A program made the translations under genes and the position numbers. DNA of 64,000 nucleotides, taken from the NCBI GenBank assembly GCA_903847155.1, contig CAINCU010000040.1:25966-89965 (forward strand). The letters are read 5' to 3'. This DNA comes from an uncultured Gallionellaceae bacterium. Lineage in GTDB: Bacteria; Pseudomonadota; Gammaproteobacteria; Burkholderiales; Gallionellaceae. Shown here piece by piece: positions 1-25,683 of this stretch. Positions within the stretch are counted from its first letter, which is position 1, and each line of letters begins with the position of its first letter. Below the pieces are notes generated by a model. That model saw only the letters and a program-made list of their open reading frames with translations, ran no database searches and was not told where the DNA came from.

Positions 1-130
1 GCCTTCCCATGATTTCTCACAGTGGCTTATCGATGTATCCACACTTGCTAACCGTTGCGGGGGCAGCACAGGCTTTTAACCTGTTTCCCGATTATCCTGG
101 CATAACTTCGCCTGGCACCTTGTAGCGAAT
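1..130 (-). promoter_or_regulatory. Cobalamin riboswitch, 3' part cut by window edge
   Basis: Read on the minus strand, this stretch holds the landmark blocks of the cobalamin (B12) riboswitch in the right order: AGGTGCC (near 120-114), GGTTAAAAGCCTG (near 80), the B12-box-like core GCTGCCCCCGCAACGG (near 68-53), GCCACTGTGAG (near 27-17) and GGGAAGGC at the edge. The regulated gene, probably a B12 transporter or B12-dependent enzyme, lies beyond position 1 on the minus strand. Bases 131-326, between the riboswitch and the end of the ABC transporter gene, hold no gene I can support, only a short inverted repeat (GTCCGC at 221-226 with GCGGAC at 237-242). Confidence 0.9.
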
Positions 131-326
131 AAACTATAACCCAAGTTTTGACTTCATATCAAAAAATCCGCAAGTTTTACAGAGCAACAACAAAAGAAAT
201 ATATTCGAAGAATTTACGGGTCCGCCGAGTTCATTCGCGGACTTGATCGCTACTGCCTATGGATTGGCGATTCGGATCAAAGTGAGGCTAACTCTATAAA
301 GCCAGTGTCCACTAGGCTTCAGGCAG

Positions 327-2507
327 TCACAAAGATGCGCCTTGATAGCCCGAAGGCTGCCACTGTTTCGATGGCTCAGTTGCCGCATGCCCTCCGGACT
401 GCTCCAGGTCCCGCACAATCTCCCCTTGCTCCAGCACCACCACCCTCTGTGCCATGGCAATCGTTTCAGGGCGATGGGCAATAACTATGCGCGTGAGATC
501 AAGCTGGGCGATGGCAACATTGACCGCCTGCTCGTTCCATATGTCGAGATGACTGGTCGCTTCGTCGAGCACCAATAGTTTGGGCTCCTTGTAGAGCGCC
601 CGGGCCAGCAAAACACGCTGCTTCTGGCCGCCGGAAAGCCCAGTACCGATATCGCCGATCAGTGTGTTGTAGCCCATTGGCATCGCCGCGATCTCGCGAT
701 CCAGCACCGCCGCGTGAGCACAAGCAGCGATCCGCTCTTGGTCGGGCGCTAGATCGAAGAAGCTGATGTTGTCGGCGATCGATCCCGAGAACAACTGGTC
801 ATCCTGCATCACCGCGCCGGCGATGCGGCGGAAGTTTTCTCGGCCGAGCTGTTCGAGATTGGTTCCGGCAACGCGAATGGAGCCTTCGGTGGGTTCGAGC
901 AAGCCGAGCAGAAGTTTCACCAGCGTCGTCTTACCAGACCCGGAAATGCCCGTGACGGCAATAAATTGCCCGGCGGGGATTTCGAGGTTGCAATTCTTCA
1001 GAACCCACGGCTCGCCATCAGCGTAACGAAAGGAAAGTCCCGTGATCTTGATGTGTGGCTCCACGGTCGCCAGATCGATTTCCGGGAGTGCATCATGCCG
1101 TTCCGGTTCTGTAAGAACGATATCGGCCACGCGCTCGCCATGCAGACGCAGCATACGCAGTTCAAACAACCGATCGATCAGCGACGCCATCCGTTGGCTG
1201 AACTGATCCTTGTAGGCCAGGAAGGCGAACAGCATCCCTACAGAGAACTTGCCGTCGATCACCGCCAGCGCGGCCAGCCAGATCACCACGACGCGTTCAA
1301 GGCCGAAGATCAACGTGTTGGCCATCTGGTACGAAATCGTGATGCGCGCGATGCGCAACTCGGCGTTGAATTGTTCAACCAGGCGATTCGACCACCCAGC
1401 ATGTCGTTCCGGCCCCCTGCCGAACAAGCGGACACTTTGGATGCCGCGTACCGATTCCAGAAAATGGGTTTGTTGCTTGGCGGCATGGACGATCTGTTCC
1501 GAATTGGCGTCCCGCAACGGGCGGAAGATCACCCAGCGCAGTAGGCCATAGAGTATCACCGTGATTATGGCAATGACGCTCAATTTCACGCTGTACAAGA
1601 CCATTAGGACGAAGGTTGCCAGCACCAGCAGGCCATCGATCAATCCCTCCACCAATTGGATGGTCAGGCTGCGCTGGATAGTCTGAATGGACCCAAACCG
1701 AGAGACGATGTCGCCCAAATGCCGTTTTTCGAAGAACGGAAACGGCAAGCGGAGCAAGTGGGCGAAGGCATTGCCCAGCCACTGGAAGTTGAATTGGGTC
1801 GTCAGTACCGTACTCACCCAAGCCCGCGTGATGGTGACGGCCGCTTGTACCAGCACCAGCACCAGAAACCCAAAGCCGAGCACGGTAATCAAATCTCGGT
1901 CGGAGGACACCAATGCCTCGTCGACGATCCACTGCAAATAGAACGGCGCCACCAGCGCGCAGAGTTGCAAAGCGATACCCAGCAGCAGCAATTGCACCAG
2001 TCCGCGGCGCAGCCCCGTCACTTTGCCCATCAATTCGAAAAGCTTGATCTGGCGGGTCTCGCGCTGCGGCCGGAAATCGGTACCGGGGGTGAGTTCCAAG
2101 GCAACGCCGGTGAAGTGCTCCGCCACGTCCTTCATGGCAACCCGGCGTTCGCCGATGGCCGGGTCGTGAATGACCACCCAATTGGCAGTAACCTCATGCA
2201 GGACGACAAAATGGTTCATGTCCCAGTGCAGCACGCAAGGCAGCTTCAAATCGGAAAGGTGCTGCAAATCCAGCTTCAGCGGACGGGCGTGGAGCCCAAG
2301 CGCCTGGGCGACGGCGATCAGTCCCTTGAGCGAGGTGCCTTTCAGCGAAACGGAAAAGCGCTGGCGCATTGCCGGCAGGTCGATCTCGTGACCATGAAAG
2401 CTCGCCACCATTGCGACGCAGGCTAGGCCGCATTCGGCTGCTTCGGTCTGTAGCATCACGGGCATGCGTGGCCCGGTGAAGAACGACAACAGTGGAGAAT
2501 TGCTCAT
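327..2507 (-). CDS. C39-peptidase ABC transporter (double-glycine leader exporter)
   Basis: This 726-residue protein is a bacteriocin/RiPP exporter that removes the leader during transport. The N-terminal C39 domain has Gln20, Cys26 (in AAECGLAC), His99 (in MNHFVVL) and Asp115 (in IHDPAIG), so the protease looks intact. A six-helix ABC membrane domain follows (about 165-440). The nucleotide-binding domain has Walker A GISGSGKTT (near 520), signature LSGGQKQR (near 626) and Walker B LLVLDEAT (near 646). I chose the ATG at 2507 because it overlaps the HlyD stop as ATGA; the longer open frame has no support. It is the last gene of the RiPP cluster. Its natural substrate should be the GG-motif precursor at 6873-7814. 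Confidence 0.93.
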   Translation of the reverse strand: MSNSPLLSFFTGPRMPVMLQTEAAECGLACVAMVASFHGHEIDLPAMRQRFSVSLKGTSLKGLIAVAQALGLHARPLKLDLQHLSDLKLPCVLHWDMNHFVVLHEVTANWVVIHDPAIGERRVAMKDVAEHFTGVALELTPGTDFRPQRETRQIKLFELMGKVTGLRRGLVQLLLLGIALQLCALVAPFYLQWIVDEALVSSDRDLITVLGFGFLVLVLVQAAVTITRAWVSTVLTTQFNFQWLGNAFAHLLRLPFPFFEKRHLGDIVSRFGSIQTIQRSLTIQLVEGLIDGLLVLATFVLMVLYSVKLSVIAIITVILYGLLRWVIFRPLRDANSEQIVHAAKQQTHFLESVRGIQSVRLFGRGPERHAGWSNRLVEQFNAELRIARITISYQMANTLIFGLERVVVIWLAALAVIDGKFSVGMLFAFLAYKDQFSQRMASLIDRLFELRMLRLHGERVADIVLTEPERHDALPEIDLATVEPHIKITGLSFRYADGEPWVLKNCNLEIPAGQFIAVTGISGSGKTTLVKLLLGLLEPTEGSIRVAGTNLEQLGRENFRRIAGAVMQDDQLFSGSIADNISFFDLAPDQERIAACAHAAVLDREIAAMPMGYNTLIGDIGTGLSGGQKQRVLLARALYKEPKLLVLDEATSHLDIWNEQAVNVAIAQLDLTRIVIAHRPETIAMAQRVVVLEQGEIVRDLEQSGGHAATEPSKQWQPSGYQGASL

Positions 2508-3793
2508 AGCTTGCCCGATATACTGAACAGCGGTTCCAGCACCCATTCGTAGAGTTTGCGCTCTTCGAGAAAAATGCTCGCATCCAGGGCCATGCCCGGC
2601 CGCAGGGACTGTTCGATTCCATAAGCCAGGACGCTCGGATGCTCAAGCGTGACGCGCACCCGATACAACGGCTCAACGTTCGTCAAGCCGCCCTGAACGA
2701 GCGAAGAGATTTCGTCGGCGCGTAGCGCCGTGCGCGAAACTTCTCGAATGCGCCCGCTGTGCTGACCGAACTTCTGATAAGGAAACGCTTGGTAGCGGAT
2801 TAATACCGGCAATCCCAGCTTGAGAAAACCGACCGACCGCGAAGGCACATAGAGTTCCGCTTCAAGCGTGGCGCTCTGCGGCACCAGACTGGCGAGCAGT
2901 TGGTTGGCGGCGACGGTCTGCCCAGGTTCGGCGGAAATCGCCGCCACTTGGCCCGGCTGCGGCGCGCGCACAACGATGCGCCGCCTGGCCTCGTTCTCGG
3001 CAAGATCCTGCTCGATGCTGGCGATGTTGCGTTGCAAAGCCAATTCGTCGCGTTTGGCCTGCTTTTGCTGGTCTTGTAGTTCGGCCTGGGCGGTGGCGAG
3101 GTCGCGTTCGACGGCCGCTTTCGCGCGTTCCAGATCGTACACCCGCTGCTGCTGGTCGATGAGATCGGCGGTCTTGTCCTGAAGTTGCGCTATGGAAATG
3201 AAGTTCACGTCGGCGAGTTCCTTGTACCGCTTCAGTGCTTGCTGGGCCAGGTCGACGCGCCGTTCCTGAAGAATGATCTGGCCGGCGATACGGTCGGTCT
3301 CCGTCCCCAGATCCTTGGCTCGGTTCGCTGTGGCGGCGGTGCGCTGTCGTGCTTGCATGGAGGCCAGCCCGCGTTCCGTCTCTAGGTTCTCACGGCGTGA
3401 TTCCAACATGGTGCTGATGGTACCTTCAGTTTCGCCGCGCGTTGCGCTGGTGCGTTCGCTCGACAGCACGAACAGCACATCGCCGGTCACAACGGTTTGT
3501 CCTTCTTCGACGCGTCGCTCGATGATGGTTCCGGCTTGGCCGGAAACTACTCGGGAGATGCCGGTGCTGGGCACGATCATGCCCACCACCTGCGCCTTGC
3601 GGGCGTAGCCAAACAACGTGAAGAAAACGACAATACCAACGGTAATTCCAACGAAGAGGAAGGTCAAAACTGAAAACGAAACCGGGCGTGCCAGCAGAAT
3701 CTCGCCGTGCAGCTTGTGGCGCGCACTGTCGAGTGCTTGCTGGCGGAAAAGGGGAGTTCGGGAGGGAATGTCGGGTGTCGGGTGATCTGGCAT
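2504..3793 (-). CDS. HlyD-family periplasmic adaptor of the RiPP exporter
   Basis: This is a membrane-fusion protein of about 429 residues. It has a short cytosolic tail, one transmembrane helix (about 38-62), a biotinyl-lipoyl-like segment (VSGQAGTIIERRVEEGQTV), a long coiled coil (about 120-260) and a C-terminal beta-barrel part. Such adaptors join inner-membrane C39-ABC exporters to a TolC-type outer-membrane channel; no TolC gene is visible here. The ATG at 3793 is preferred to a TTG seven codons upstream, but neither has a clear Shine-Dalgarno sequence. The stop overlaps the ABC gene start, so the two are translationally coupled. Confidence 0.88.
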   Translation of the reverse strand: MPDHPTPDIPSRTPLFRQQALDSARHKLHGEILLARPVSFSVLTFLFVGITVGIVVFFTLFGYARKAQVVGMIVPSTGISRVVSGQAGTIIERRVEEGQTVVTGDVLFVLSSERTSATRGETEGTISTMLESRRENLETERGLASMQARQRTAATANRAKDLGTETDRIAGQIILQERRVDLAQQALKRYKELADVNFISIAQLQDKTADLIDQQQRVYDLERAKAAVERDLATAQAELQDQQKQAKRDELALQRNIASIEQDLAENEARRRIVVRAPQPGQVAAISAEPGQTVAANQLLASLVPQSATLEAELYVPSRSVGFLKLGLPVLIRYQAFPYQKFGQHSGRIREVSRTALRADEISSLVQGGLTNVEPLYRVRVTLEHPSVLAYGIEQSLRPGMALDASIFLEERKLYEWVLEPLFSISGKL

Positions 3794-3845
3794 GCGGCTA
3801 AACGATACAAACAAAAGATTGTGGCGAAGTCATATTGGCACCTAT

Positions 3846-5276
3846 TTATCGACTTGTCTCATAACAGTGCTGATACTGAGCCGATAGCTGCAAATGACGC
3901 TCTATTGCCACCTTTGCTAACCAATTGGCACCTTCCCCCTGATCTTTTGCCTTATCTAAATCATCTCGAACAAATTTCGATGAAAATCCATTATTGTTTG
4001 CATAGAGAACATCGTCTTGTCTTCTATAGTTGCGGTAAGCCGCGTTCACTAATGAACTGTCATGATATCCCCTGCACCAGGCTATTGCCTCTTTCAACGA
4101 AAGACTAGGTAATATCCATTCGCACGAATTCCAGATATCAATATTCCGCCCAGCAATAATACTATAGTCTTCGTGTTGCGCAAGCGGGGAGGATGCAACA
4201 ACATAATATGGTTCAACCGATATTTGATCGGAGAACATACGTAAGGAATCCAGAAGCCTCTCAATGGAAGCAATGCTATCCCCAGGAAGTCCAATATGGA
4301 TTGTCACCATTAAATACGCCACCGGACCCATTGACTCGCGAAGCCGTGCAACAAGAGCTTGAATATCAAACTGCGTATAACCCAACACGGCGCGACCTTT
4401 TGGCGTTGCTCCGTATAAGCAAACATTTAATGAGCCAATTCTGTGCTCTTTAATGAATGCCCAAAATTCTTTTAAGTGAGCAAGTCTAAGGAAGTCGGAA
4501 TTTAGGTGTAACTCTATTTCGCCATTTGGCGCGACTCTATGCATCATATTTGATAACAGGTGGAATTTCGTCTCCGATATCTTTAGTGAGTCGCTAGTAA
4601 GTGTCAAATTGAATGGTTGCGGTTTTAAGTTTAATTCTCTTTCTAGTTCTTTAATATTAGAAGCCAAATTTGTAGCTTTAATTCTCTTGTACGGCAAGCA
4701 CGTAGTTGGCTCTCTTGAACAATTTATGCAGTGCCCGTGGCACTCAGGCATGTCGATCATCATATTGGCAGAGCGCCATAAGTAGCCATTGGCCGGAACA
4801 TATTTGACAGACTTCCTTCCTCCATAATCGAATTTTGGAGACGAGATGTTAAACACAGTCGCCATTTCCAATAACGAATCATATCCCCGCCTGAATATGG
4901 CCGAGGCTTGATTAAACGCATCGTCTATAAATAACTCATCAGGTAACAACCCCATGATGCAATACTTAATGTTAGGGTACCCCTGTCGCAAACTGGTCAT
5001 TTTGTCGTTAATGATTCGCGCCCACGGGAGTGGGATACCGTCTGGGATATCTCTCCATGCCCCCGCTAGATATATCCCAGCCCATACAGTGCGCCCTCGA
5101 TATTTACGGACCAAATACTCAACAAGAATGCTATCGGGTATTTGTATGAACGTATCATGTATGGCGGCGTCCACTGAAAAATGTTGCAGTGCCGTTTTTG
5201 CGGCATAGACCCCAGGTATCGGCCAGAAACGGGAATCCGGACGTTCAGAGAAAATCTCGATAGAATAAGTGGCCAT
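3846..5276 (-). CDS. Radical SAM enzyme with B12-domain-like N-terminus
   Basis: This protein has about 476 residues. A CX3CX2C cluster motif (Cys179, Cys183, Cys186) sits far from the N-terminus, where B12-dependent radical SAM proteins carry it. Residues 1-175 have alternating strand/helix patterning that recalls a B12-binding domain, but I do not see the DXHXXG base-off motif, so cobalamin use is uncertain. After the cluster come an LPYKRIKATNL segment and a TIM-barrel-like region typical of this superfamily. In proteusin pathways, B12 radical SAM enzymes (PoyB, PoyC) C-methylate the core; a similar role here is inference from context. The gene is AT-rich compared with the exporter genes. 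It starts at the ATG at 5276 without a strong ribosome site, 235 bp after the SPASM gene. Confidence 0.7.
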   Translation of the reverse strand: MATYSIEIFSERPDSRFWPIPGVYAAKTALQHFSVDAAIHDTFIQIPDSILVEYLVRKYRGRTVWAGIYLAGAWRDIPDGIPLPWARIINDKMTSLRQGYPNIKYCIMGLLPDELFIDDAFNQASAIFRRGYDSLLEMATVFNISSPKFDYGGRKSVKYVPANGYLWRSANMMIDMPECHGHCINCSREPTTCLPYKRIKATNLASNIKELERELNLKPQPFNLTLTSDSLKISETKFHLLSNMMHRVAPNGEIELHLNSDFLRLAHLKEFWAFIKEHRIGSLNVCLYGATPKGRAVLGYTQFDIQALVARLRESMGPVAYLMVTIHIGLPGDSIASIERLLDSLRMFSDQISVEPYYVVASSPLAQHEDYSIIAGRNIDIWNSCEWILPSLSLKEAIAWCRGYHDSSLVNAAYRNYRRQDDVLYANNNGFSSKFVRDDLDKAKDQGEGANWLAKVAIERHLQLSAQYQHCYETSR

Positions 5277-5380
5277 TTCAAGTATCCGCAATTAGCGATT
5301 GTCTTTACAGGACTCGACGGTTGTTAAGAGCGTAGCGGGCTAAGCTAAACAAGCATTTTGTCAAGATAGCGACAGCGTCG

Positions 5381-5511: not shown

Positions 5512-6873
5512 TCAATTTCCCTTCTCCAGATTTTCCCGACAAGACTGAGTCATGCTGGAAAGATCGATATCTCCCATCCAGGAAACAAGCCTAATAGGGA
5601 TTAGGCCGGTAATAAAAAAAACCGCTGCACAAAGGAACGGCAGCCGATAGTAAAACTGAAAAAGACACGCCTTTGAGAATTCGTCGTTCTCCAAATATAA
5701 ACAGCCTCCGCGGCAAAATGCGAGGACAGGGCATTTTATGCAATTGTCACGTGAGCGCCAGTGCCATACTGTATTCAGTACTGGACCAGGAAGGTCGCTT
5801 ACGTGACCAAGCAAATGCCTTCCGACAGGAAGTGTATTTTGGCAGGTAACAATGTTTTGCGTATTCAGATTAACTACGACAGCATCTGGTCTATCCAAGC
5901 CACATTTATGTCCAATACAAACGGCTGGCTTACTGGTTTGAAGCATCGAAAAAAAGTCCTGTATTTCCTCCCCAAACGCGAAGAGGCTCTTCCCGGCAAT
6001 TAGTTCCTCAAAAACGATAGAAAGATCGGCCAAGCTAGGGGCAACAACATTCTGATTTGCCGGCGTCGCGAGCCCCTCCGTTAATAAAACAATATTTATA
6101 TAAGACGTGCTTAATCGTCGAGCTAAATAATGGCGAATATCTACGATGGACAAATTGTCGGACGTCAAAACGCAGTTAAAGCGTAATGATCTCCTGCTCT
6201 CAAGCAATCGGTGAAACAGTTCGTGAACATAATGATTATTGAGTACATCATCAGTTCTATGCCGACCGGGTCCATCATGGCTTATAGTAACGTCAACCCG
6301 ATCATGAGTCAGAATCCAATCCGCGATTTGCTTGTTTATCAAAGACCCGTTTGTAACGGTACCAACTCTGGCCTGGGGATAAATGTCCAAAAGGCTTTCA
6401 GCTAAAGGCTTGAAATCCGACCAATAAACAAATGGCTCGCCCCCCCATAACTCAAATCTAATTTCTTGCGCAGGATTTAGCCATGATCTTAGCCCGGCAA
6501 CAAAGCCAGCGACATTTTCCCGGTTTGCGTTTTTCCTAACCGGAACCATCGATGAAGAAGAGTGATCACGTCCGTCTTGCTGCGCACAGTAACCACATTG
6601 AAAGTTGCATTTCAATCCCAGCTGAATCTTAACTAATTGGAATGGCCCGTGTTTATGGCCCGGACTACTCGGAGTAATAGTAAACTGTCGCTGATGCTCC
6701 CACGGTTGCTGCGTTTTCTGGTATTTTCTACCGACTCGATCAAGTGATAATAAACCGCCCGACGACCACTTCATAATATTCGATTGCACGTCATAATGAA
6801 CGGATTTAATATCGCCTCGAGAATCCACTAAATCAATTACAACCGGATTAGCGGTTTCGGTAGCATTGTCCAT
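5512..6873 (-). CDS. SPASM-domain radical SAM RiPP maturase
   Basis: This radical SAM protein of about 453 residues has the cluster motif CNFQCGYC (Cys89, Cys93, Cys96), followed by the WGGEP motif typical of SPASM enzymes. A Cys-rich C-terminal region (CIGHKCG, then CIKCPVLAFCRGGC and a further Cys) should bind one or two auxiliary Fe-S clusters. The family makes thioether, C-C or oxidative modifications in peptides. A hydrophobic segment after the SPASM region (PFLCAAVFFITGLI) is unusual and might anchor it at the membrane. The ATG at 6873 overlaps the precursor stop as TAATG, so this maturase is translationally coupled to the precursor. Confidence 0.85.
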   Translation of the reverse strand: MDNATETANPVVIDLVDSRGDIKSVHYDVQSNIMKWSSGGLLSLDRVGRKYQKTQQPWEHQRQFTITPSSPGHKHGPFQLVKIQLGLKCNFQCGYCAQQDGRDHSSSSMVPVRKNANRENVAGFVAGLRSWLNPAQEIRFELWGGEPFVYWSDFKPLAESLLDIYPQARVGTVTNGSLINKQIADWILTHDRVDVTISHDGPGRHRTDDVLNNHYVHELFHRLLESRRSLRFNCVLTSDNLSIVDIRHYLARRLSTSYINIVLLTEGLATPANQNVVAPSLADLSIVFEELIAGKSLFAFGEEIQDFFSMLQTSKPAVCIGHKCGLDRPDAVVVNLNTQNIVTCQNTLPVGRHLLGHVSDLPGPVLNTVWHWRSRDNCIKCPVLAFCRGGCLYLENDEFSKACLFQFYYRLPFLCAAVFFITGLIPIRLVSWMGDIDLSSMTQSCRENLEKGN

Positions 6874-7814
6874 TAGCCGGAAAGCTCCGCTACGGACATT
6901 TTCCCACAAAGATCAGCGCCATCAACGCTAACACCACTCTCGACGACATAGCTGTTTGCAATAAAACTTTGGTTGCCGTCCAACAAAAAACTATGCAGTG
7001 TTTCAGGTTCCGACACAACCCTGTAAGTCAATGAAGAGACGGTACCTATCCCATCAGCCAGATAAATCTTATCCCCTAATTCCATCTGACGGAATTGCCT
7101 GTCTTCCAATCCAAATTCCGGATTCAATTTGCGCTTCCAGGTTCGATAGGCACGATATCCCTCCAAATCCACTGCAAGCCACAGTCCATCTTCGCAAAGG
7201 AATAGCTGCTCCCATGTGCACTCAATTTGTGAGTTCAATTGGTAGATCTTGTCCCCCGGCTGAACAACACAAGTAACTAGTTCCGACACCCGATTACTAC
7301 CGCCGAGTGCTGCTAATTCGGTTCCCACGGGAATTAGTTCGATCGGGACGATTGCTCCATCAGCACGCTTTACTCTGGTATGCTTGGGGAAGCAGCAAAA
7401 GCCTCCGCCTGAACCAGCAACTAAAACTAGCACACCAGCGGCCACGACGACGACGACACCCGCCACTACTGCAGAATAAACGGTCACGGCAGCCGCAGCA
7501 TTAACGGAAGCCAAAACATTAATGTTAATCGTCAGGGTACCACCCCCGCCGGCAACCTGTTCAAGCGTATCGTCGTCTAGTGGAATCTCAATCAAATTAG
7601 AGGCTCCATCCCTGCAGAATGTAACCCCTGGATTATTTTCTTCTTGTAGCGCTCTTGCTAAATTGGCCTGAACGCTGTCCTCACTTAACTGTGCACCACA
7701 CTCTCTGTTTGCAAAGTCAACTAAGCCTGCCACACTAAAATTCGACTTCAATGAGTCTATGAAAGCCTGTTCCTTACCCACTGGAATAACAAAATCATCG
7801 ATATCATGTTTCAT
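6873..7814 (-). CDS. RiPP precursor: leader, GG motif, hydrophobic core, Hint-like domain
   Basis: This 313-residue protein has four parts. Residues 1-85 look like a Nif11-type helical leader. LDDDTLEQVAGG (79-90) matches the double-glycine cleavage site used by C39 peptidases. Residues 91-139 are almost only Thr, Ile, Asn, Val, Ala and Gly, with TININV and a Val/Ala-rich run, much like a proteusin core. From Cys140-Cys141 on, CFPKHTRVKRADG and PIELIPVGTELAAL match the start of a Hint (intein/hedgehog) domain, which ends near residue 291 with FIANSYVVES. The usual block-B His seems replaced by Gln (TWEQ), and the final His-Asn by Glu-Ser, so self-cleavage may be altered or lost. The gene has a good ribosome site (AAGGA) and lies between an epimerase and a maturase. 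The core assignment is inference. Confidence 0.72.
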   Translation of the reverse strand: MKHDIDDFVIPVGKEQAFIDSLKSNFSVAGLVDFANRECGAQLSEDSVQANLARALQEENNPGVTFCRDGASNLIEIPLDDDTLEQVAGGGGTLTININVLASVNAAAAVTVYSAVVAGVVVVVAAGVLVLVAGSGGGFCCFPKHTRVKRADGAIVPIELIPVGTELAALGGSNRVSELVTCVVQPGDKIYQLNSQIECTWEQLFLCEDGLWLAVDLEGYRAYRTWKRKLNPEFGLEDRQFRQMELGDKIYLADGIGTVSSLTYRVVSEPETLHSFLLDGNQSFIANSYVVESGVSVDGADLCGKMSVAELSG

Positions 7815-7860: not shown

Positions 7861-9312
7861 TCACAATGCATACCCAATAAACCCCCTGTGCCATAACGAG
7901 TCGATTAATCCTATAACCTTAAAAGCGTTTTCCTCGGTGGAACGTAGTTTTTGAACAATCTCAACCGGAGTATGGCCCCCTTCACTGAGCAATTGAATCA
8001 GGCGCCTTGCCTGTGTAAAGTCGGCCCTTGCATTCCGACTCACCAAGTAAAACTTACCGTTCTCCTCGACGCAAGAAAGACCCTGATCCAATCTAATCGG
8101 AACCGCTGGATTTATTGTTATCGGCATATGCTTGGCAACAATATCCAACATTACTTGACCGAGATCAGTGTGATTTTTATATCCCATTTCCGCGTGGATA
8201 ACAAAACCATCTTTCCATTTCACGGAAGGTTGACATGGACTAATTAGTTGTACAGTTTTGGTCACAATATTGACCAAAAAGCCGGTTACACAAGCAATAG
8301 TTGCCGCCTGAAGATTCTGCTGACGCTTTTTGCTGTGGGAGGGCGCCGAGACTGCATCCGAGAATGCTTTTCCAGCCGCTGATTTGAATTCCTGACTTGC
8401 TCCAGAATTTTGCAACACCAATTCCACGCCCAATAGCTCTTCATCTGTAAAAGTATTGTGAATTTGCTTAAGCTGTGAGTTGCTCAATACGGAAAACCTA
8501 GTGGGAAAATCGCGGTTGATGCTAGCTAGACTCAGCACCTCCTTAGTGAGGCTAACGTTCCTAAGAGGTATAGCCGTTGTCGTCTGAGGGACTACCCCAG
8601 TGATTTCACGGTATATTCTCAAAAAGTCGATATATTCCGGATTGTCAAGTGGATCTGTCGCCCAATATAGGAAGCCGCTGCTCATACCGGTGCCGACCAC
8701 AGATTTTGCAGTATGAAGCAAAGACCGCCATTCAGCCTCTCCTCCACCTTTTAGTGAGAAATGGCCTCGAAATTTCTTGGCGGAAACTCCGCAAAACCAG
8801 CAACCTACGGAGCAACCATCGGAAAGTTCAAATGCTATTGGCGTATGAACTATTCCTAGGCTGGATAATCCCAACTCGAATTTAGTCCGCTGGATATTGC
8901 GTTGCCGCCAAGAGTCGAAGTTTTCATTAATGCCCGAAGAGCCGCCGGCTGCAACCAATTGTTTTCGGAACACATTGGCAGTAGAAACATATTTCATCCA
9001 TAGATATGCAAGCGGCCACTTTTCCGATATGAAGCCATCGTCGGTAAATGGGGTTAGCAGAGATGGATTGAATACTGGTTCAAGGCATTTATACGTAGAG
9101 ACATCGACATCCTGATCATTGTCGCGGCTGTGATCGGCGATCCCTTTATCGACCTTAAGCCTAAACTCCGGATCCCCCTGATATCTCTCAATAAACCGCT
9201 TGGCCTTGGCAAATAAACCTCGGTTACGGTCATCCAAAGAACGCATAAAGTGAGCGTACTCTCTGTCGGTTGCGCTGTGTTCTAACTGTTCTGTTGAATT
9301 GTGATTTTGCAA
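7861..9312 (-). CDS. PoyD-like radical SAM peptide epimerase
   Basis: This 483-residue protein has the motif ELSDGCSVGCWFCG (Cys167, Cys171, Cys174), which I recognise as the signature of RiPP-maturation amino acid epimerases related to PoyD and OspD. These enzymes turn L- into D-residues along a leader-guided peptide. They need a C-terminal Cys as hydrogen donor; Cys341 and Cys360 are the candidates here. The last 80 residues (LSEGGHTPVEIVQKL and onward) look like a small winged-helix or recognition element. The start is a TTG with a well-placed GAGGA site. It lies directly upstream of the hydrophobic precursor, the natural substrate. Confidence 0.82.
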   Translation of the reverse strand: MQNHNSTEQLEHSATDREYAHFMRSLDDRNRGLFAKAKRFIERYQGDPEFRLKVDKGIADHSRDNDQDVDVSTYKCLEPVFNPSLLTPFTDDGFISEKWPLAYLWMKYVSTANVFRKQLVAAGGSSGINENFDSWRQRNIQRTKFELGLSSLGIVHTPIAFELSDGCSVGCWFCGVSAKKFRGHFSLKGGGEAEWRSLLHTAKSVVGTGMSSGFLYWATDPLDNPEYIDFLRIYREITGVVPQTTTAIPLRNVSLTKEVLSLASINRDFPTRFSVLSNSQLKQIHNTFTDEELLGVELVLQNSGASQEFKSAAGKAFSDAVSAPSHSKKRQQNLQAATIACVTGFLVNIVTKTVQLISPCQPSVKWKDGFVIHAEMGYKNHTDLGQVMLDIVAKHMPITINPAVPIRLDQGLSCVEENGKFYLVSRNARADFTQARRLIQLLSEGGHTPVEIVQKLRSTEENAFKVIGLIDSLWHRGFIGYAL

Positions 9313-9360: not shown

Positions 9361-9855
9361 TTACTGGTCGTTTGAGGAATTCTCGCACCCTAAGAAAGGG
9401 GCCTCCCTCTTAAGTGACGACACCTTGAGAGTGAGTGCGGAACAGAATTCAGTCTGATTTTTTGGGGAAATCATTATTGTTTTGGAGTATCCCTGAATGT
9501 CATATGCTATTCGGAGTCTATCAAGAGACAACGCTGGCGATGCAGACATATCTCGAGTTTTTTCCATTCGGATTATCGTTTGAAACGGAATCTGCCATTT
9601 AAATATCCCAAACCGTACTATCAAATTATGATCATCTAACGAATACTTTGTATTTATGACTGGTAGCCACATCAAAACAGCCGCTATCGTCGCCATGGTG
9701 AAAGTGAACACGAAATACCTAGAAATGTTATGGAGATGGAATAGGGAAAATTCACTCTCACCTCGCACAAAAGGCATAACCATGGCGATGGAAGCCACAA
9801 CGAATACTAGAATGAGCCAGAGATCGACTTTGGAGTGAAATTCAATGGGCTGCAT
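9361..9855 (-). CDS. PH-domain (bPH-type) membrane protein
   Basis: This 164-residue protein has two transmembrane helices (about 12-30 and 47-68), followed by a soluble region (YSLDDHNLIVRFGIFKWQIPF, then a Ser/Leu-rich segment and SYSKTIMISPK-like strands) that fits bacterial PH domains. Proteins of this type often accompany bacteriocin and RiPP clusters and may give self-protection, but no function is shown. It starts at an ATG with an AAGGA site. It is the first gene of the leftward RiPP operon, 48 bp before the epimerase. Confidence 0.6.
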   Translation of the reverse strand: MQPIEFHSKVDLWLILVFVVASIAMVMPFVRGESEFSLFHLHNISRYFVFTFTMATIAAVLMWLPVINTKYSLDDHNLIVRFGIFKWQIPFQTIIRMEKTRDMSASPALSLDRLRIAYDIQGYSKTIMISPKNQTEFCSALTLKVSSLKREAPFLGCENSSNDQ

Positions 9856-11890: not shown

Positions 11891-11924
11891 AAAAAGGGGC
11901 GACACGATAGTGTCGCCCCTTTTT
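11891..11924. terminator. Bidirectional intrinsic terminator between convergent genes
   Basis: A perfect 15-bp inverted repeat (AAAAAGGGGCGACAC at 11891-11905 and its complement at 11910-11924) with a GATA loop gives a GC-rich stem flanked by A and T runs on both sides. It can end transcription of the rightward gene at 11218-11874 and of the leftward tra operon at traG. The traG stop codon overlaps its right end. Confidence 0.9.
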
Positions 11925-14900
11925 CACTTCTTGGTGATTTTTTCCACCGCCTGATTACCAATGTTTTTAGCTTCACTTGCCACATCAGACGCGATATTGA
12001 GCACGTCGTCGTTGGTCTTTTTAATCGCTTGACCAGCGGCTTGAGCGTCGGCCTTAATTTGCTGTGGTGCGTTTTCCAAGTGCGATATAACTCCATCGTC
12101 GCCCGTGATCAGATTTCTTGTCGCTGCACCCGCCCCAATAGCTCCCGCACCTTTACCAATCTCCTCTGTTGTTTGCGTCACCCCGACTTCGGCCTTCGCT
12201 GCCGCACGTGAGGCAGCAAGGGATGCTGCTTCTTTTCTTGCTTCTATTTGGGCTGCTGTATCGGAAACCTGTGTAGCACCGGTTTCGGCTACTTTTTCGA
12301 CTGAGTTAGCAGCTATGCGCTCTTCTGTTTTTGCCGCTACTTTGAGTGCGGTCGCTTCTGCCGCATCACCTGCGGCTTTGCCAGCTTTTGTCGCAAGACC
12401 AACCCCCTCCGTGGCGACCTTACCGCCCGCCCCTCCAATAACCAAAGAACCACCCTCTAATGCAGCGCCAACAATATTTCTGGTTAGCGATCCGTGATTC
12501 TCATCGGCTGTTTGTTGGGCTACACTTCCTAACGGAACCCCTGCCCTGTCCAGCAACTTGGTAGAGTCTGAGCCTAGCGCTGCTGGAACGGCATTCGTTG
12601 CAGCTCTAAGCGCATTACTTCCATGGGTTGGGTCGGTGTTTTGCGTGACAGACTGTTTGAGCGGATCGCCTTCAGCCTTGACCTCGCTTTGCCCGTCGTG
12701 AATCTGCTTACCAGCATTGTCGAGCGCACTATTCACCTGCGGTGTTACGTTATCGACCGGCTTGGTATTGGGGTTCACACCAGCCTTGTTCTGCGCCGCC
12801 GTTACGTCACTATCATTCTGGTTCTTGAATGCTGCCTGCTGCTCTCCTGCCGTTGGAATCCCATCAACATCCTTCGCGTGCTGCGCTCCCACGGTGTTGG
12901 TCGGTGCAGGTATGTTCTTCTCAATCTCCGGCGCCAGTCTTTCATCGCTGAACCTTTGCGCGTACTTGCCAATATCATCAGGGTGCAAGAGAGACATTTG
13001 CGACACTTCGTTCGCTGTGAAATTCTTTCCGGTTGTCGGGTTTTGTTGTTGTTCCATCCAACCCATAAATTCATTGTTGTGGTTGGTGTCGAAGGCTGCT
13101 CCCATTTCTCTTGTGCGGGTTGCTGCCTCTTGATAGCTATTAGACCTTTCAAAATTGGCGGCGGCAGACTCCACATGCGACTCGCTTTTTTGCAGGTTGC
13201 TCACAATCCCCTGCGCCGCCTTCACTGTAGCAGCATCGCCTTTCGTGAAGTCTTTGTTTTTGGATGCTGTGTCGATTTTCTGGACGGCTGCTTTGAATTC
13301 CTTGTTCTGCGCCAACTCGTGTGCCAATTTCTGGTCTTGTGAAGTTGTTGAGCTGCTTGATCCTTCGATTCCAGTCCCTGCTTTCGCCTCTGCACCTCCA
13401 ACGAGTGGCACCTGAATTCCACCTTTCACCTCGGCACTCGCATATGCCATTACTTTCGCTGCTTGGTCTTGTTTTAATCCGTGGCTTGCGGCAAATTTAT
13501 CTCCAACGGCGGTCATCTCGCTGAAGCCTTGAACCACTTGTGCCGCGCTGGTTGTGGAGGCTCCAGTGGATGCCTTTGTGTCTTTGGCGTGTGTTCTGTC
13601 GAACGTTTTGAACTCATCCCGCGCGGCAGTAATATTGCTCGCTGCGCTGACGGTTTCTGCCATCCCTGCCCGTTCCGCTGATGTAGCAGCACTTTGAAGT
13701 GAACCGGCAGTCCGGCCACTCAGTTTTGCATTTGCTCCAATCTGCTGGAATGCGGCGCTATTGTTTATCACCTCACCATTCGCCCCATAGAAGTGGCCTA
13801 CATTGTCAGCGCCAGTCATTGAGTGCCCGCCCTGAGAAAGCGAGGTCTTTGTGTTCATCTGTCCCATGCTCAGATTGCTCGCCGACTGACTACCTAATGA
13901 AGCACTTCCCATCGAGAATGAGCCTGTTGCCATGCCTGATGCCACTTTCTCGGCTTCACGCGATGGGCTTACCATACCGCCTATCGCTTGAGCGCCAACA
14001 TCGCCACCCTTTACGATGGCCGCCGCGATTGCGGGAATGGCGGTGGCCGCGATCATGCCTGCAATTCCCTCATCCCGCAGATAGGCATTATTCACAAAGC
14101 TGTACTGGGACATGGACAACCCAAGCCCGTTGGTCATGGCCGCAAATTCCTGCGCGTGCATCGTCATAATCAAGTGCATGACGGCATACAGCGGTGGCCA
14201 CAACTGCACCCACAGCAAACTCATCACGTATGCCTTGATTACCAAGCCGCCTTTATGTCCGGCCATAAGCACCAGCAGCATGATGATTGGGAAGATCGCG
14301 TACTGCACCAACTCCACGATGTTTTTGACCTTCGGCATGGTGCTTTCAGCCAGCGACGCCATCATCTTGTAACTTTCACTGGTGGAACGGATCGCCTGCG
14401 CTTGTCCAAGGTTGGCCGCTGCCCCTGCCGAATCTCCGAGCTGAGCGGGTAGCATGTATTGCGCATCGATCATGAAATTACTCATGGCCGTCTGTTTCGT
14501 TATCGACATCGCGTCCGTGGAAATGCCAAGCATGTAGTTCGTGGATGTCTGGATTGCACTTTGTATGGCTGTGTTGGCGGCAGCGGTCGGCAACCCCGGA
14601 TAAAGCCTTCGGCCAAGTGCGTTCATCTGTTTGGTGTTCACGTAATCAATCTGCATGCCCAGCATGGAATAGGCCACGTCGCAGTTATATGTATCAGCCG
14701 CTGGAGCGGCGCCAGGCACGGCGGCAAGCGTTACAAGCAGGCCGGGGTTAGTTTTGCCGGAAAGATATGTCCAGATGTCGTTTGATTTAGCCATGTCGCT
14801 GGCCACGATGTAGCCGGTGGAATATTCTGGAACAACGCATTCACGGTAGAACTCCAAAAGATTGCTGTTGAGGATGGAGTTATCGAACTTCGTGTGCAGG

Positions 14901-15337
14901 ATCTCCTGCTGAACGCGGTGACCAAATAGCGTGCCATTGGTGCGAAACTGAATATCGTTCGGGAGAGAAAACACGGTCTCGAAGGTGTTGGTGAGCCAAT
15001 CGCCAACGTGGCTGACGGAATGCGCAAATGCGGCGAGGCCAAGGGGGACGTTCGCTACGGTGACGGGCGCGGTACTGCCAGTCCGGTCGATCAGCACGAC
15101 GTTCGTTTTCGGCACCAACAGCATGCCATTGAACACGGCGAACATGACGACCCATCGCCCGAAGTCGGGAAGCTGGCTGAATCCGGCGAGTACCGCCATC
15201 GCCATCGACAGAATGCCCACAAGAGCAAGGGACTGCAATAAACCAAGATAATCCGGGCTTCCAACGACTGCCGCAACCGCGTTGAATACCAATTGCAACT
15301 CAGCAATATTCCAGTAGGAATAAATATCAAATTCCAT
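11924..15337 (-). CDS. traG: TraG, F-type mating-pair stabilisation protein
   Basis: This 1137-residue protein has the N-terminal membrane region of F-type TraG (opening EFDIYSYWNIAELQ; helices near 35-60, 350-400 and 420-450) and a long Ala/Ser/Gln-rich C-terminal part with helical repeats. TraG is needed for pilus assembly and mating-pair stabilisation and also acts in entry exclusion. The ATG at 15337 is preferred over an adjacent GTG because GGAGG lies five bases before it. It is the last gene of the leftward transfer operon, 29 bp after traH, and ends in a strong terminator. Confidence 0.92.
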   Translation of the reverse strand: MEFDIYSYWNIAELQLVFNAVAAVVGSPDYLGLLQSLALVGILSMAMAVLAGFSQLPDFGRWVVMFAVFNGMLLVPKTNVVLIDRTGSTAPVTVANVPLGLAAFAHSVSHVGDWLTNTFETVFSLPNDIQFRTNGTLFGHRVQQEILHTKFDNSILNSNLLEFYRECVVPEYSTGYIVASDMAKSNDIWTYLSGKTNPGLLVTLAAVPGAAPAADTYNCDVAYSMLGMQIDYVNTKQMNALGRRLYPGLPTAAANTAIQSAIQTSTNYMLGISTDAMSITKQTAMSNFMIDAQYMLPAQLGDSAGAAANLGQAQAIRSTSESYKMMASLAESTMPKVKNIVELVQYAIFPIIMLLVLMAGHKGGLVIKAYVMSLLWVQLWPPLYAVMHLIMTMHAQEFAAMTNGLGLSMSQYSFVNNAYLRDEGIAGMIAATAIPAIAAAIVKGGDVGAQAIGGMVSPSREAEKVASGMATGSFSMGSASLGSQSASNLSMGQMNTKTSLSQGGHSMTGADNVGHFYGANGEVINNSAAFQQIGANAKLSGRTAGSLQSAATSAERAGMAETVSAASNITAARDEFKTFDRTHAKDTKASTGASTTSAAQVVQGFSEMTAVGDKFAASHGLKQDQAAKVMAYASAEVKGGIQVPLVGGAEAKAGTGIEGSSSSTTSQDQKLAHELAQNKEFKAAVQKIDTASKNKDFTKGDAATVKAAQGIVSNLQKSESHVESAAANFERSNSYQEAATRTREMGAAFDTNHNNEFMGWMEQQQNPTTGKNFTANEVSQMSLLHPDDIGKYAQRFSDERLAPEIEKNIPAPTNTVGAQHAKDVDGIPTAGEQQAAFKNQNDSDVTAAQNKAGVNPNTKPVDNVTPQVNSALDNAGKQIHDGQSEVKAEGDPLKQSVTQNTDPTHGSNALRAATNAVPAALGSDSTKLLDRAGVPLGSVAQQTADENHGSLTRNIVGAALEGGSLVIGGAGGKVATEGVGLATKAGKAAGDAAEATALKVAAKTEERIAANSVEKVAETGATQVSDTAAQIEARKEAASLAASRAAAKAEVGVTQTTEEIGKGAGAIGAGAATRNLITGDDGVISHLENAPQQIKADAQAAGQAIKKTNDDVLNIASDVASEAKNIGNQAVEKITKK

Positions 15338-15365
15338 CACGTCCTCCGCTGCACAACAGCAACTC

Positions 15366-16778
15366 TTAGTTCATTACCGACATCGAGGTAAATGCCTGCG
15401 CCGGGATACCTGCCACCATAGCTTGGTGTAGCGACTGTAATTGACGCTCCAGCTCTACAGCGCTTTGGAGCTTTCCGTTCTCGGCGATGCGCTGCGAGTA
15501 CAGTTCTGCCTTCAGGGTGGCAAGGTTGTCTTTCAGTTCTTTCAGGGCTTGCTGTGCATCCGGTGCGGCAGGTTCGATTTTGCCGCTACTGATCGTCTGA
15601 TTCGCCGTGTAGAGCAGGTTATTGACATAGGAGTAGGCAATATCGACCGCGATGAATCTTTTATATTTGCTGACAAGATCCGGCTGCGTGGTCGCAGAGA
15701 GAGAAATCATTTTCCAGACCGGGACGGACGAAATATCCACCACATGGAAATCATTGGTGTTTTGCGACGTGCGCGAATTCACAGCGTTGACCATGTTGTC
15801 AATCTTGGCTGATACCGCAGTCATGAATGTTTGGGCGCTTATGACCGATGCGGTTGGAGACAGACAATCAATCGGCTCATCACACGTCCAAATACGAAAT
15901 GTCTCTGTCGCACCATCGTTATAACCGATGAAATCCTCTACTCGTATGCCGGTTGGTTCCTTGTAATGCCAGGCTCCAGTCTTGCCTCCATTCGGATCGG
16001 TCGCCGCGTCGCCAGTCGGGTCCGCAATGATGATGGTGCCCGTCATGCTCATGATAAGTTCCTTATCCTGAACGTCGAGACCGGAAGTGTTCTTTAACGC
16101 CTGCCACACGACGTTGCCGGGCTGATAGAAATTTTTCTTAGAGGGGTCGGCAGCGATAGCGGCGGCTTGAGCATCGCGTTGTGCTTTGGCATCAGCCCTG
16201 GCGCTGTTCCAAGAGCTATATGAATCCGGCGCAAGGTTTCCCAACGTGCCAGTCACGTGCGAATAGGCATCCTTCGCTCTTTGCGAAGTGTCGGCTCCCA
16301 TCGCAAAGGTAATGCCCTGCGCGGCTTCGCAGGAGTTGATATTGGCGTTGTTGATTTTGCTGGCCTCATCCTGCAAATACTCGAACAGGCTACCCATCTC
16401 CGGCATCGAGGATTTGATCGCCAGCAGGAAGGCATAGCTCAGGGATGTGCCAATGTTCTGGAACATCGCAGTGATGGTGGATTTGTTGATGAACGAGAAT
16501 GAGCCAGCAGTTAAATCAATCCCGCCACAACCGATATTCAATGATGGCGCTGTGGCTGACATGAGCTGGTAGTTTTTTACAGGATTCCGAACATAGAATC
16601 CGCCACCGGAATATCCGTTCATCGTCTGCGTTTTATAGGACGATGGCGGCGTGGCGTTGCTGAATCCGCCCATGCTGTTGAACCAGTCCGACATGCCGGT
16701 TCCAACGTCGGCGCTGACCGGTGCAGAAACTAGAAGGGCTGCTGATAATGCCAGAACAAGTGGTTTATTAACGCGCAT
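15366..16778 (-). CDS. traH: TraH, F-type pilus assembly protein
   Basis: This 470-residue protein has a signal peptide (cleavage likely after SAPVSA, near residue 23) and the TraH pattern: an N-terminal Gly/Ser-rich segment (GGFSNATPPSSYKTQ), the CGGIDLTAGSFSF block and a coiled-coil C-terminus. TraH acts in the periplasm with TraF and TraW in pilus extension. The ATG has a GGGAG site. It fits the family's usual length and order (traH before traG). Confidence 0.92.
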   Translation of the reverse strand: MRVNKPLVLALSAALLVSAPVSADVGTGMSDWFNSMGGFSNATPPSSYKTQTMNGYSGGGFYVRNPVKNYQLMSATAPSLNIGCGGIDLTAGSFSFINKSTITAMFQNIGTSLSYAFLLAIKSSMPEMGSLFEYLQDEASKINNANINSCEAAQGITFAMGADTSQRAKDAYSHVTGTLGNLAPDSYSSWNSARADAKAQRDAQAAAIAADPSKKNFYQPGNVVWQALKNTSGLDVQDKELIMSMTGTIIIADPTGDAATDPNGGKTGAWHYKEPTGIRVEDFIGYNDGATETFRIWTCDEPIDCLSPTASVISAQTFMTAVSAKIDNMVNAVNSRTSQNTNDFHVVDISSVPVWKMISLSATTQPDLVSKYKRFIAVDIAYSYVNNLLYTANQTISSGKIEPAAPDAQQALKELKDNLATLKAELYSQRIAENGKLQSAVELERQLQSLHQAMVAGIPAQAFTSMSVMN

Positions 16779-16792
16779 GGTTATTACTCCCT

Positions 16793-17095
16793 TTAATCTT
16801 TGTATCCGAGCAGCGCTGTCTTTGCTAACTGCACTGTATTGCCAATTCCAGCATCACCAGTTGCTACGGCAATTTCATTAAGCGACTTAATCAAGTCGGC
16901 AGGAGACCACCAGATGCTTCGATGAGCCATATCCCACCAAAACCAAACTGCCGGTAATTTCTCATCTGCTATTTCCCAAACAAGCGCACCATTCGATGAT
17001 TGACGTGCCCACGCCTCTACAGCGTCTTCCACCGCCTTGAGTAGCGGATGGAGTGCTTTTTCGCGTGCATCTTGTAGCTTCTGTTCAACCTTCAT
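16793..17095 (-). CDS. Hypothetical protein in the tra operon
   Basis: This is a 100-residue protein of unknown function with a charged helical N-terminus (KVEQKLQDAREKALHPLLKAVEDAVEAWARQ) and a Trp-rich middle (PAVWFWWDMAHRSIWW). It has no signal peptide or membrane helix. The ATG at 17095 has a GGAAAGG site; the longer open frame overlaps the next gene and is not supported. It lies between traH and another small gene in the same orientation. Confidence 0.6.
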   Translation of the reverse strand: MKVEQKLQDAREKALHPLLKAVEDAVEAWARQSSNGALVWEIADEKLPAVWFWWDMAHRSIWWSPADLIKSLNEIAVATGDAGIGNTVQLAKTALLGYKD

Positions 17096-17114
17096 TGATA
17101 TGCCTTTCCATTTT

Positions 17115-17354
17115 TCAATCGTACAGAGGCGCATTCTTGCGAGCCTTGCAATACTCGGCGGCATGATCCATTCCAGAATAATAGGCATCAGCTTCTGGAG
17201 TCCCTAAATCAAACGGAAACGCTATTTGATCTGCCCCTTCAATCAATCGCCGCAGCTTTTGTTCAAAGCCTGAGCGGTAAGCGGTGCTTCGTGGTGTAGT
17301 ACCGACACGAAACCGATCCTTCATCGCCTCATCAACTGTGAATGCACACGCCAT
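17115..17354 (-). CDS. Hypothetical small protein in the tra operon
   Basis: This is a 79-residue soluble protein of unknown function (MACAFTVDEAMKDRFRVGTT...). It has no recognised motif. The ATG at 17354 starts 10 bp after the traF stop. The longer frame would overlap traF and is unlikely. Its position between traF and the other small gene suggests that it is expressed with the transfer operon. Confidence 0.55.
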   Translation of the reverse strand: MACAFTVDEAMKDRFRVGTTPRSTAYRSGFEQKLRRLIEGADQIAFPFDLGTPEADAYYSGMDHAAEYCKARKNAPLYD

Positions 17355-17364
17355 AATTTGCTTT

Positions 17365-18189
17365 TCAGAGATCACCGGGCTTGGTTTGTGTGAGCACATA
17401 GATTCGCTCAACAAAGTCTTGCAACGAAAGTACGCCAGAACCGAGAACAATCATCTTGTGCGTCTTGACGTTGCCAAGCACGAAGAGCGGAACTGCATCA
17501 ACGCCGAGCTGGGTGGCCAGCCCGTTATCGTTGACGGAGGGAGGCAAGCCTTCAATCGTAGAACCATCCATACTGACGGGCAGGATCGTCATATCGTACT
17601 GACGGGTAAGCCATTGCAGCGTCGGAACCATATGCTTGCAGTAAGGGCAGTCGCCGCGATAGAAAAAGAATATTCCCCACTCTTTCGCCAGCGCAACCAT
17701 CGTTTCGTTTTCGTCCGCATTGCGCTGGCGGTCTTTCACTCTGATCGCGGAGTTGTTCATCGGATTCTTCAACTCGAAATTCAGCTCGGCGTTCTGCCAC
17801 AGCACGCGCCTCCAAATATCCGTAACGTAAGCGGCGCGCTCTATCTCGACTTTGTTTGCCTCCATGAATGTCTTGACGGTTTCTTCAGTGGGATGCACCA
17901 CCATCAGAGCGCGCGCTTCATCGAGATTTTTGCGTATTTTCTCCAGCTCCTTAACGGCACGTTCGCCCTCGGTTTTGCCTGTCGTCGTAGTGGCGTCTTT
18001 CTTTTTAGGCTCATCGGCTGGTTCTTCTTGATGCTCACAATACCAACTGAATTTGTTCTCATCATCGCCACACTTCCACTCCGACGAATATCCCAGGCTG
18101 GACGGGTAATCTCGCCCCTCCACCGCAAACGAAGAAACCGTTGGCAGCATGGCCAGCGTGATAAGCAAAAAACGCACAGCCGCTATCAT
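17365..18189 (-). CDS. traF: TraF, thioredoxin-like pilus assembly protein
   Basis: This 274-residue protein has a signal peptide (MIAAVRFLLITLAMLPTVSSFA) and a C-terminal thioredoxin-like domain with a CPYC motif (RGDCPYCKHM), as in many F-type TraF proteins. TraF works in the periplasm in pilus assembly with TraH and TraW. The ATG at 18189 gives the proper signal peptide, 4 bp after the trbI stop; the longer open frame runs through trbI. The element also encodes a DsbC-like protein, so disulfide handling in the pilus machine is well provided for. Confidence 0.87.
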   Translation of the reverse strand: MIAAVRFLLITLAMLPTVSSFAVEGRDYPSSLGYSSEWKCGDDENKFSWYCEHQEEPADEPKKKDATTTTGKTEGERAVKELEKIRKNLDEARALMVVHPTEETVKTFMEANKVEIERAAYVTDIWRRVLWQNAELNFELKNPMNNSAIRVKDRQRNADENETMVALAKEWGIFFFYRGDCPYCKHMVPTLQWLTRQYDMTILPVSMDGSTIEGLPPSVNDNGLATQLGVDAVPLFVLGNVKTHKMIVLGSGVLSLQDFVERIYVLTQTKPGDL

Positions 18190-18193
18190 GAAA

Positions 18194-18559
18194 TTACTTG
18201 GCGCTCGCAATAAGTTCAGTGACTCGCTGCGTGTAGTCGCGCGTGCCTCCTGCCGGTGCATCCTTGATGATCGCCACTGAATTGATGATGGTGCATTTGC
18301 ACTCTTCGGAGACTTGTGTGAGCGCCATATCAAGACGCTTACCGAAACGCGATGCCTGATCAATAATCGCCGCTTGCGCCGCTTTGTCCATGCCGGGCTT
18401 CAACTGCGCTGCGAGGGTTTTTTGTTGAGCTGTGACGATGCCGATAATGTCGACCTTTACTACAGGTGCGGACGGATGGAGATGCTGCCATCCAGCAATG
18501 ACTGCAATGGCGATCGTCGCCGATAAGGTGCCGGTGATGACATGAGCTATATTTGACAT
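18194..18559 (-). CDS. trbI: TrbI, F-type transfer protein
   Basis: This 121-residue protein has one N-terminal membrane helix (ITGTLSATIAIAVIAGW), then a soluble part with VKVDIIGIVTAQQKTLAAQ, FGKRLDMALTQVSE and a late VAIIKDAPAGGTRDYT block, which fits F-type TrbI, a protein that influences pilus retraction. In F-like systems trbI comes after traC and before traW. Here traW and traU are missing and traF follows directly. Confidence 0.75.
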   Translation of the reverse strand: MSNIAHVITGTLSATIAIAVIAGWQHLHPSAPVVKVDIIGIVTAQQKTLAAQLKPGMDKAAQAAIIDQASRFGKRLDMALTQVSEECKCTIINSVAIIKDAPAGGTRDYTQRVTELIASAK

Positions 18560-18573
18560 TGTTGTTTCCCTGA

Positions 18574-18771: not shown

Positions 18772-18813
18772 GGCATTGCTCCTTAGAATGTTGGTTGATA
18801 TTGGCATCACGTA

Positions 18814-21399: not shown

Positions 21400-21400
21400 G

Positions 21401-22659: not shown

Positions 22660-22673
22660 TATTTGACTCCCCG

Positions 22674-25049: not shown

Positions 25050-25119
25050 TCGCTAGAAAGTGATTTCTCTTGATTTGTTGCTGAGAGTTGAATTAAATTT
25101 TTCAGGAGTCACGGCGCAC

Positions 25120-25413: not shown

Positions 25414-25415
25414 TG

Positions 25416-25616: not shown

Positions 25617-25683
25617 GCCTACATCTCCGTGTTTATGGTTGACCCGCGATACAAGCATTTGTCACGGGGCAACCATAGGATGG

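Follow-up and report, generated by a model that had tools for sequence, protein, structure and literature searches.

Several described systems come close to the protein analysed here. In borosins and fused burpitides, the precursor is fused to its own autocatalytic enzyme (PMC11253845). Among Hint domains, hedgehog proteins rely on the first acyl shift only (PMC7765530, PMC7664689), and bacterial intein-like (BIL) domains of the B type have no C-terminal motif, yet they cleave on their N-terminal side and can also cleave C-terminally through an atypical reaction (PMC7765530). The block-B His is highly conserved, and its mutation yields an inactive precursor or inhibits cleavage; Tko CDC21-1 functions without it (PMC7765530). 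Here, we describe a 64,000-nucleotide stretch (the window) of contig CAINCU010000040.1 from an uncultured Gallionellaceae bacterium, in which one reading frame of 313 residues with an ATG start holds a leader, a double glycine, a 50-residue core and a Hint-like domain. We read this protein, with a rough probability of 0.5, as a likely precursor of a ribosomally synthesised and post-translationally modified peptide (RiPP) whose C-terminal half is predicted, from the sequence and a structure model, to be a self-cleaving Hint domain that would cut on its N-terminal side through a thioester at Cys141. Our literature searches (for the larger ones, among the matches listed) found no natural RiPP precursor ending in a Hint domain.

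The order of leader, double glycine, 50-residue core and Hint domain had been proposed in a first-pass annotation of the window. The open reading frame agrees with it, and the layout recurs in four full-length relatives. The parts of the precursor are as follows, with counts referring to the 11 members of the family presented below, the window protein included:

6873..7814, minus strand: precursor (leader, core and Hint domain), 313 residues; supported by the open reading frame and by four full-length relatives built alike
7545..7814, minus strand: leader, residues 1-90, ending with Leu(-7), Val(-4) and Gly-Gly
7395..7544, minus strand: core, residues 91-140; an Asn-x-Asn part, a Val/Ala-rich hydrophobic part, then GGGFC
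6936..7394, minus strand: Hint domain, residues 141-293
7392..7397, minus strand: Cys140-Cys141, the predicted site of the cut; 11/11 members have both Cys
7206..7217, minus strand: block-B position T200-W-E-Q203, replacing TxxH; T, E and Q in 11/11
6936..6941, minus strand: E292-S293, replacing His-Asn; Glu in 11/11, Ser in 10/11

The assignment of the C-terminal part to the Hint fold, also made in the first-pass annotation, is upheld by structure prediction. A first model from three sequences was poor overall (mean predicted local distance difference test, pLDDT, 42.9), yet it already matched Hint folds; the model used here is the second one, built from 11 sequences. Its best 50 of 180 Foldseek matches in the PDB (E up to 10) were all intein, BIL, hedgehog or Vint structures, the first of them at E 3.1e-10. 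In this predicted model, Cys141 sits at the place of intein Cys1, and the Hint superfamily is defined by such a fold with Cys or Ser in first position. At the profile level, the window protein matched only Hom_end_hint in Pfam (E 0.12), and PF01079 was retrieved with the relatives P0003 (E 2.8e-5) and P0004 (E 1e-5); no Pfam Hint model exceeded its curated cut-off, the best score being the 25.7 bits of P0004 against 29.7.

Twelve residues of the junction and domain are invariant in the family: Cys140, Cys141 (the Cys1 position), Thr146, Cys182, Glu198, Thr200, Glu202, Gln203, Ser275, Phe276, Asn287 and Glu292. Ser293 and Cys199 are each found in 10/11 members (Gly in P0005 and Ser in P0004, respectively), and position 282 carries Gln in the window protein and Lys or Arg in the ten others. 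Also invariant are G219, Y220, Y223, R224, F234, G235, L236, D238 and Q243, within a conserved stretch spanning approximately residues 217-243, of which some seven residues (about 218-224) have no counterpart in the four outgroup domains that were aligned. Five outgroup Hint domains from other genomes present TxxH in all cases and His-Asn in three. Set against these outgroups, the family has given up the block-B His together with His-Asn and retains Cys1. After the Hint end, 10/11 members carry Gly, Glu, Gln, Lys or Arg, and P0004 alone has Ser there.

Three described classes were compared with this domain, and its residues depart from each. As a class 1 intein, it would have a terminal Asn (or Gln or Asp) followed by a nucleophile; the terminal place is taken by Ser (10/11) or Gly (1/11), and a nucleophile (Ser) comes next in one member. 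The C-terminal His-Asn of A-type BIL domains is replaced by Glu-Ser in 10/11 and by Glu-Gly in the remaining member. B-type BIL domains have all motifs but the C-terminal one, and here the block-B His is lost as well, being Gln in 11/11.

The family was assembled from the Hint part. A query with residues 138-313 retrieved P0002 and P0003, and a profile of the three sequences retrieved at least eight more members (E 1.3e-69 to 3.9e-56); the whole-precursor protein query recovered only itself, probably through the low-complexity words of the core. The members form two groups. Group A (the window protein, P0002-P0005 and P0006) presents a leader ending in GG or GA, an Asn-x-Asn stretch, a hydrophobic stretch and the Hint domain; P0006, 210 residues on a contig of 1524 bases, is missing its leader, and the group has five complete ones. 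The fused architecture is not due to chance, for P0002-P0005, all full-length, show leader, GG/GA, core and Hint in the same succession. Pairwise identities among the five full-length members reach 52-64% in the Hint domain, 20-55% in the leaders and 27-57% in the cores. The tail after the Hint domain is variable in this group, with 20 residues in the window protein and two in P0004.

Group B (P0007-P0011, 320-330 residues) starts with a twin-arginine-like N-terminus, with TIGR01409 above its cut-off in 3/5, followed by a conserved stretch containing WGLGF and by alternating Asn-Cys or Cys-rich runs, such as the Asn-Cys repeats of P0007, NCNCNCNCNC. The junction reads GGYCC, GGFCC, SGFCC or CGFCC; after it come the Hint domain common to the family and, behind that, a CF[D/N]LS tail. 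Only twin-arginine translocation (TAT) and Hint models were of note for these proteins in Pfam and NCBIfam. Group B suggests that precursors with Asn-Cys repeats exist as another, TAT-type kind. The group B proteins may themselves be modified or metal-binding.

In the Hint tree, the 11 members form one clade (98/97) apart from five outgroups, and group B branches with the window protein and P0006 (95/92), although the outgroup branches are long and the root uncertain, so that such joins may be false. This placement of group B implies that the Hint module changed partner at least once. No family members were found by scans of genome contigs and viral contigs, nor by tblastn of the relatives against plasmids and phages, one region among the weak matches having been inspected. 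Whole-genome searches in overlapping draws of 100, 398, 369, 367 and 389 genomes recovered the family only in the window's genome; the draw of 367, taken from a different class within the phylum and not containing the window's genome, held no member. The five other whole-genome matches that were read (L019, L029 and L033-L035) are proteins of 215-682 residues with Hint domains of the usual kind. By reading, the 682-residue protein of L029 (253-2301) carries two Hint domains, the first with a Cys-Cys-Phe start and a His-Asn end like a canonical BIL domain, and the second without His-Asn.

The leaders are less conserved, with only M1, L22, F26, L56, E76, D81, L84 and G89 common to all five. Residues 89-92 of the window protein read GGGG; by alignment, the double glycine shared with the relatives is 89-90, which leaves 91-140 as the core. 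All five leaders have Leu at -7 and Val or Ile at -4 ahead of GG or GA, which fits the general pattern of C39 cleavage sites. The GG site of the window leader weakly matches ComC (0.19) and Bacteriocin_IIc (0.35), and chance-level leader matches include the EntV bacteriocin model (0.4, one member). Neither Pfam nor NCBIfam assigned any of the five leaders to a leader family at E up to 10, with scan filters that drop most matches above about 0.1.

A Nif11 leader, as alluded to in the first-pass annotation, is rejected. PF07862 matches 0/5 leaders at E up to 10, and as a control it matches 4/5 precursors located beside other genes of the PoyD epimerase family (best 7.1e-13; the fifth, L012, at 0.17). 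These control loci comprise three of 49 matching plasmid records and both other PoyD genomes of the class set, the L016 precursor being taken to start at an internal ATG within a 147-residue frame. Aligned with hhalign against the four matching control precursors, the family leaders gave a probability of 5.9%. The NHLP (proteusin) leader family of Pfam and NCBIfam matches none of the five leaders at E up to 10, while the predicted order of secondary structure (helices 15-24, 28-38 and 45-58, strands 65-69 and 72-76, helix 82-88) resembles that of the proteusin leader of MprE7 (PMC10858898), at low confidence (pLDDT of this block 42-70). LXXXXL is found in 2/5 leaders, at Leu79/Leu84 (-12/-7) in the window protein.

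Asn-x-Asn occurs 10 times in the five cores. Shuffling whole cores gave a mean of 3.7 and at least 10 occurrences in 10/10,000 trials, and shuffling within the Asn-rich parts only gave a mean of 5.8 and reached 10 in 296/10,000. Because of this latter frequency, and because the five cores are homologous, there is only modest support for an alternation that goes beyond composition.

How such a precursor might mature can be outlined. The PoyD-family enzyme encoded next to it would epimerise residues of the Asn/Val-rich core before the Hint cap comes off, and one or both of the other radical S-adenosylmethionine (SAM) enzymes of the gene run may modify the core further. Cys141 would then attack the peptide bond after Cys140 and, in the way of hedgehog and B-type BIL domains, form a thioester, the resolution of which by water or another nucleophile would free the leader-core from the Hint domain. 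The C39 exporter would cut the leader off after Gly90. The Hint cap may, in addition, protect the producer from a membrane-active core up to the moment of release. A cut or a thioester at the core/Hint junction, already put forward by the first-pass annotation, is possible, with Cys1 kept in 11/11. C-terminal chemistry lost and an N-terminal nucleophile kept is the pattern expected of a domain cutting only on its N-terminal side, and P0004 ends two residues past Glu-Ser, so nothing need follow the domain. The better conservation of the Hint part compared to leader or core also supports self-cleavage.

Several observations nevertheless weigh against it. The block-B His is Gln in 11/11 and the F-block positions hold Ser275 and Lys, Arg or Gln at 282; as mutation of this His inactivates the precursor or inhibits cleavage, the activity could be slow, conditional or gone. 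B-type BIL domains, according to PMC7765530, share the other intein motifs, and the family Hint domains do not. The link to an epimerase comes from the window locus alone, and 5/11 members have no GG leader, so the function of the Hint domain need not be tied to C39 export. Moreover, group B keeps its CF[D/N]LS tail after the Hint domain, and the C-terminus may therefore matter too.

The replacement of the block-B His, the F-block and the His-Asn residues would equally suit a Hint domain that no longer cuts and has become a folded follower domain, docking the modifying enzymes or keeping a very hydrophobic core soluble, with another protease or the exporter handling it. The invariant stretch G219-Q243, whose residues 218-224 or so are absent from the four aligned outgroups, could be the docking surface. 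A retired domain should, however, lose its Cys1, and Cys141, Cys140 and Thr200 are kept in 11/11, which leaves this alternative rather unlikely in our judgement. If the domain does form the thioester, it might pass the core to a chosen nucleophile, either the core's own N-terminus (forming a ring), the thiol of Cys140 or an envelope molecule in the manner of hedgehog and cholesterol. Nevertheless, no acceptor-binding domain lies in the 20 residues (window protein) or two residues (P0004) past the Hint domain, and no cyclase or lipid gene was recognised in the gene run; we regard such a transfer as unlikely. The membrane helix of alternating D/L residues suggested in the first-pass annotation, like its cyclisation or attachment of the core, is conjectural. 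An extended version, in which a retooled Hint domain (Cys-Cys, TxEQ, Glu-Ser) would hand the thioester of an epimerised membrane-spanning peptide to an acceptor and also serve the TAT-exported Asn-Cys precursors, is doubtful and offered speculatively. Finally, an intein fold could in principle splice the core to the C-terminal tail. The ligation of intein type envisaged in the first-pass annotation is excluded because Glu-Ser replaces the His-Asn end, and the block-B His, which assists the initial step, is Gln in 11/11; there is no Asn at the Hint end (Ser 10/11, Gly 1/11), the next residue is nucleophilic (Ser) only in P0004, and the tail is short and variable in the GG-leader group. Splicing is thus already contradicted by residue content and highly improbable.

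If the domain cuts, the pathway would be equipped to release the C-terminus of its peptide tracelessly, and D/L peptides with a defined C-terminal thioester could be used to make pore-forming peptides or to attach them. In the extended version given above, the Hint module would serve exported RiPPs in general as a portable device for C-terminal maturation. A Hint domain that has lost both catalytic His residues and the terminal Asn, and has kept Cys1, makes the minimum for the first intein step directly testable.

The precursor lies in a run of genes on the same strand, the other members of which are:

9361..9855, minus strand: PH-domain membrane protein, heading the gene run (PF06713 1.2e-21)
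7861..9312, minus strand: PoyD-family radical SAM peptide epimerase (TIGR04517 2.5e-116, 389 bits, cut-off 325)
5512..6873, minus strand: radical SAM enzyme with SPASM-like C-terminus (PF04055 8.1e-5, TIGR04085 4.3e-5, all below cut-off)
3846..5291, minus strand: third radical SAM enzyme, CxxxCxxC in the sequence (PF04055 0.017)
2504..3814, minus strand: HlyD-type membrane fusion protein (PF13437 1.2e-15; TIGR01843 1.1e-33, below cut-off)
327..2546, minus strand: ATP-binding cassette exporter with C39 double-glycine peptidase domain (PF03412 3.7e-36)

Epimerase, C39 exporter and HlyD protein are thus all within the precursor's gene run, and the epimerase and two further radical SAM genes reported by the first-pass annotation are all present. 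The precursor start is preceded by a ribosome-binding-like stretch, AGAAGGA, and its stop overlaps the start of the 5512..6873 gene in TAATG. That gene product shows a weak PapB-family likeness (4e-11, far below the curated cut-off). Apart from the weak PF04055 match, neither Pfam nor NCBIfam places the 3846..5291 enzyme in a named family, and it might be a new type of maturase. The exporter also matches TIGR03796 (5.8e-147, below the cut-off of that model). The PH-domain protein is a possible immunity protein candidate; SunI is the sublancin immunity protein, and the SunI-like PH model matched at only 0.16.

The epimerase is the sole PoyD match in its own genome, and PoyD was found in 3/369 genomes of the class, the window's genome included. 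PoyD is frequent on rhizobial plasmids, 46 of the 49 matching records being from Rhizobium, Sinorhizobium or Mesorhizobium; in the three regions read (L012-L014) a short precursor-like gene precedes it, in one case near nifHDK.

The G+C content is 44-48% in the genes for the precursor, the epimerase and the two other radical SAM enzymes, versus 54% for 30-64 kb, and 58% in the 1-3846 stretch holding the HlyD and exporter genes. Beyond the exporter, we found a cobalamin riboswitch and then a gene read from its sequence as a BtuB-like receptor; no further gene of the RiPP set was recognised on the contig on that side, and a PHROGs scan gave weak or unnamed matches only. A conjugative element adjoins the cluster (11924-28000 and 30362-31507), with a TraG_N protein and other conjugation genes by reading, and the end of its integrase-like gene overlaps tRNA-His (31443-31518). 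Repeats bounding this element, which would tell whether it carries the RiPP genes as cargo, were sought at the tRNA-His end and none was found.

Compared to known systems, the family Hint domain is structurally closest to BIL domains, with T. thermophila BIL2 (6y75) and C. thermocellum BIL (2lwy) as best matches: they share the Hint fold and the register of Cys1, and in most members no splicing nucleophile follows the domain. Unlike them, it has TxEQ for TxxH, Glu-Ser for His-Asn and a conserved stretch of its own, and it stands behind a RiPP core. With polytheonamide-type RiPPs and proteusins, the window precursor shares a neighbouring PoyD-family epimerase, a long leader and an Asn-x-Asn and Val-rich core of approximately 50 residues. 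The polytheonamide core is 48 residues long, close to the 50 found here; in the window core, unlike in polytheonamide, the polar Asn part lies ahead of the hydrophobic part. The LXXXXL motif of the proteusin MprE7 (PMC10858898) has its like in Leu79/Leu84 at -12/-7. In contrast to proteusins, the window precursor has no NHLP leader by profile and extends past its core. The Nif11-leader precursors beside PoyD on rhizobial plasmids and in two other genomes also place a leader before a short core, V-rich at its end in several cases, but the five examined have 86-129 residues and no Hint domain. Borosins and fused burpitides likewise hold core and enzyme in one chain; theirs is a methyltransferase or copper cyclase modifying the core, whereas the enzyme part here is a Hint domain that would cut the core free. 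Finally, man-made fusions of inteins with bacteriocins, used as self-cleaving expression tags (PMC6070625), also put an intein fold on an antimicrobial peptide; those are engineered and carry unmodified bacteriocins, whereas the window protein is a natural precursor.
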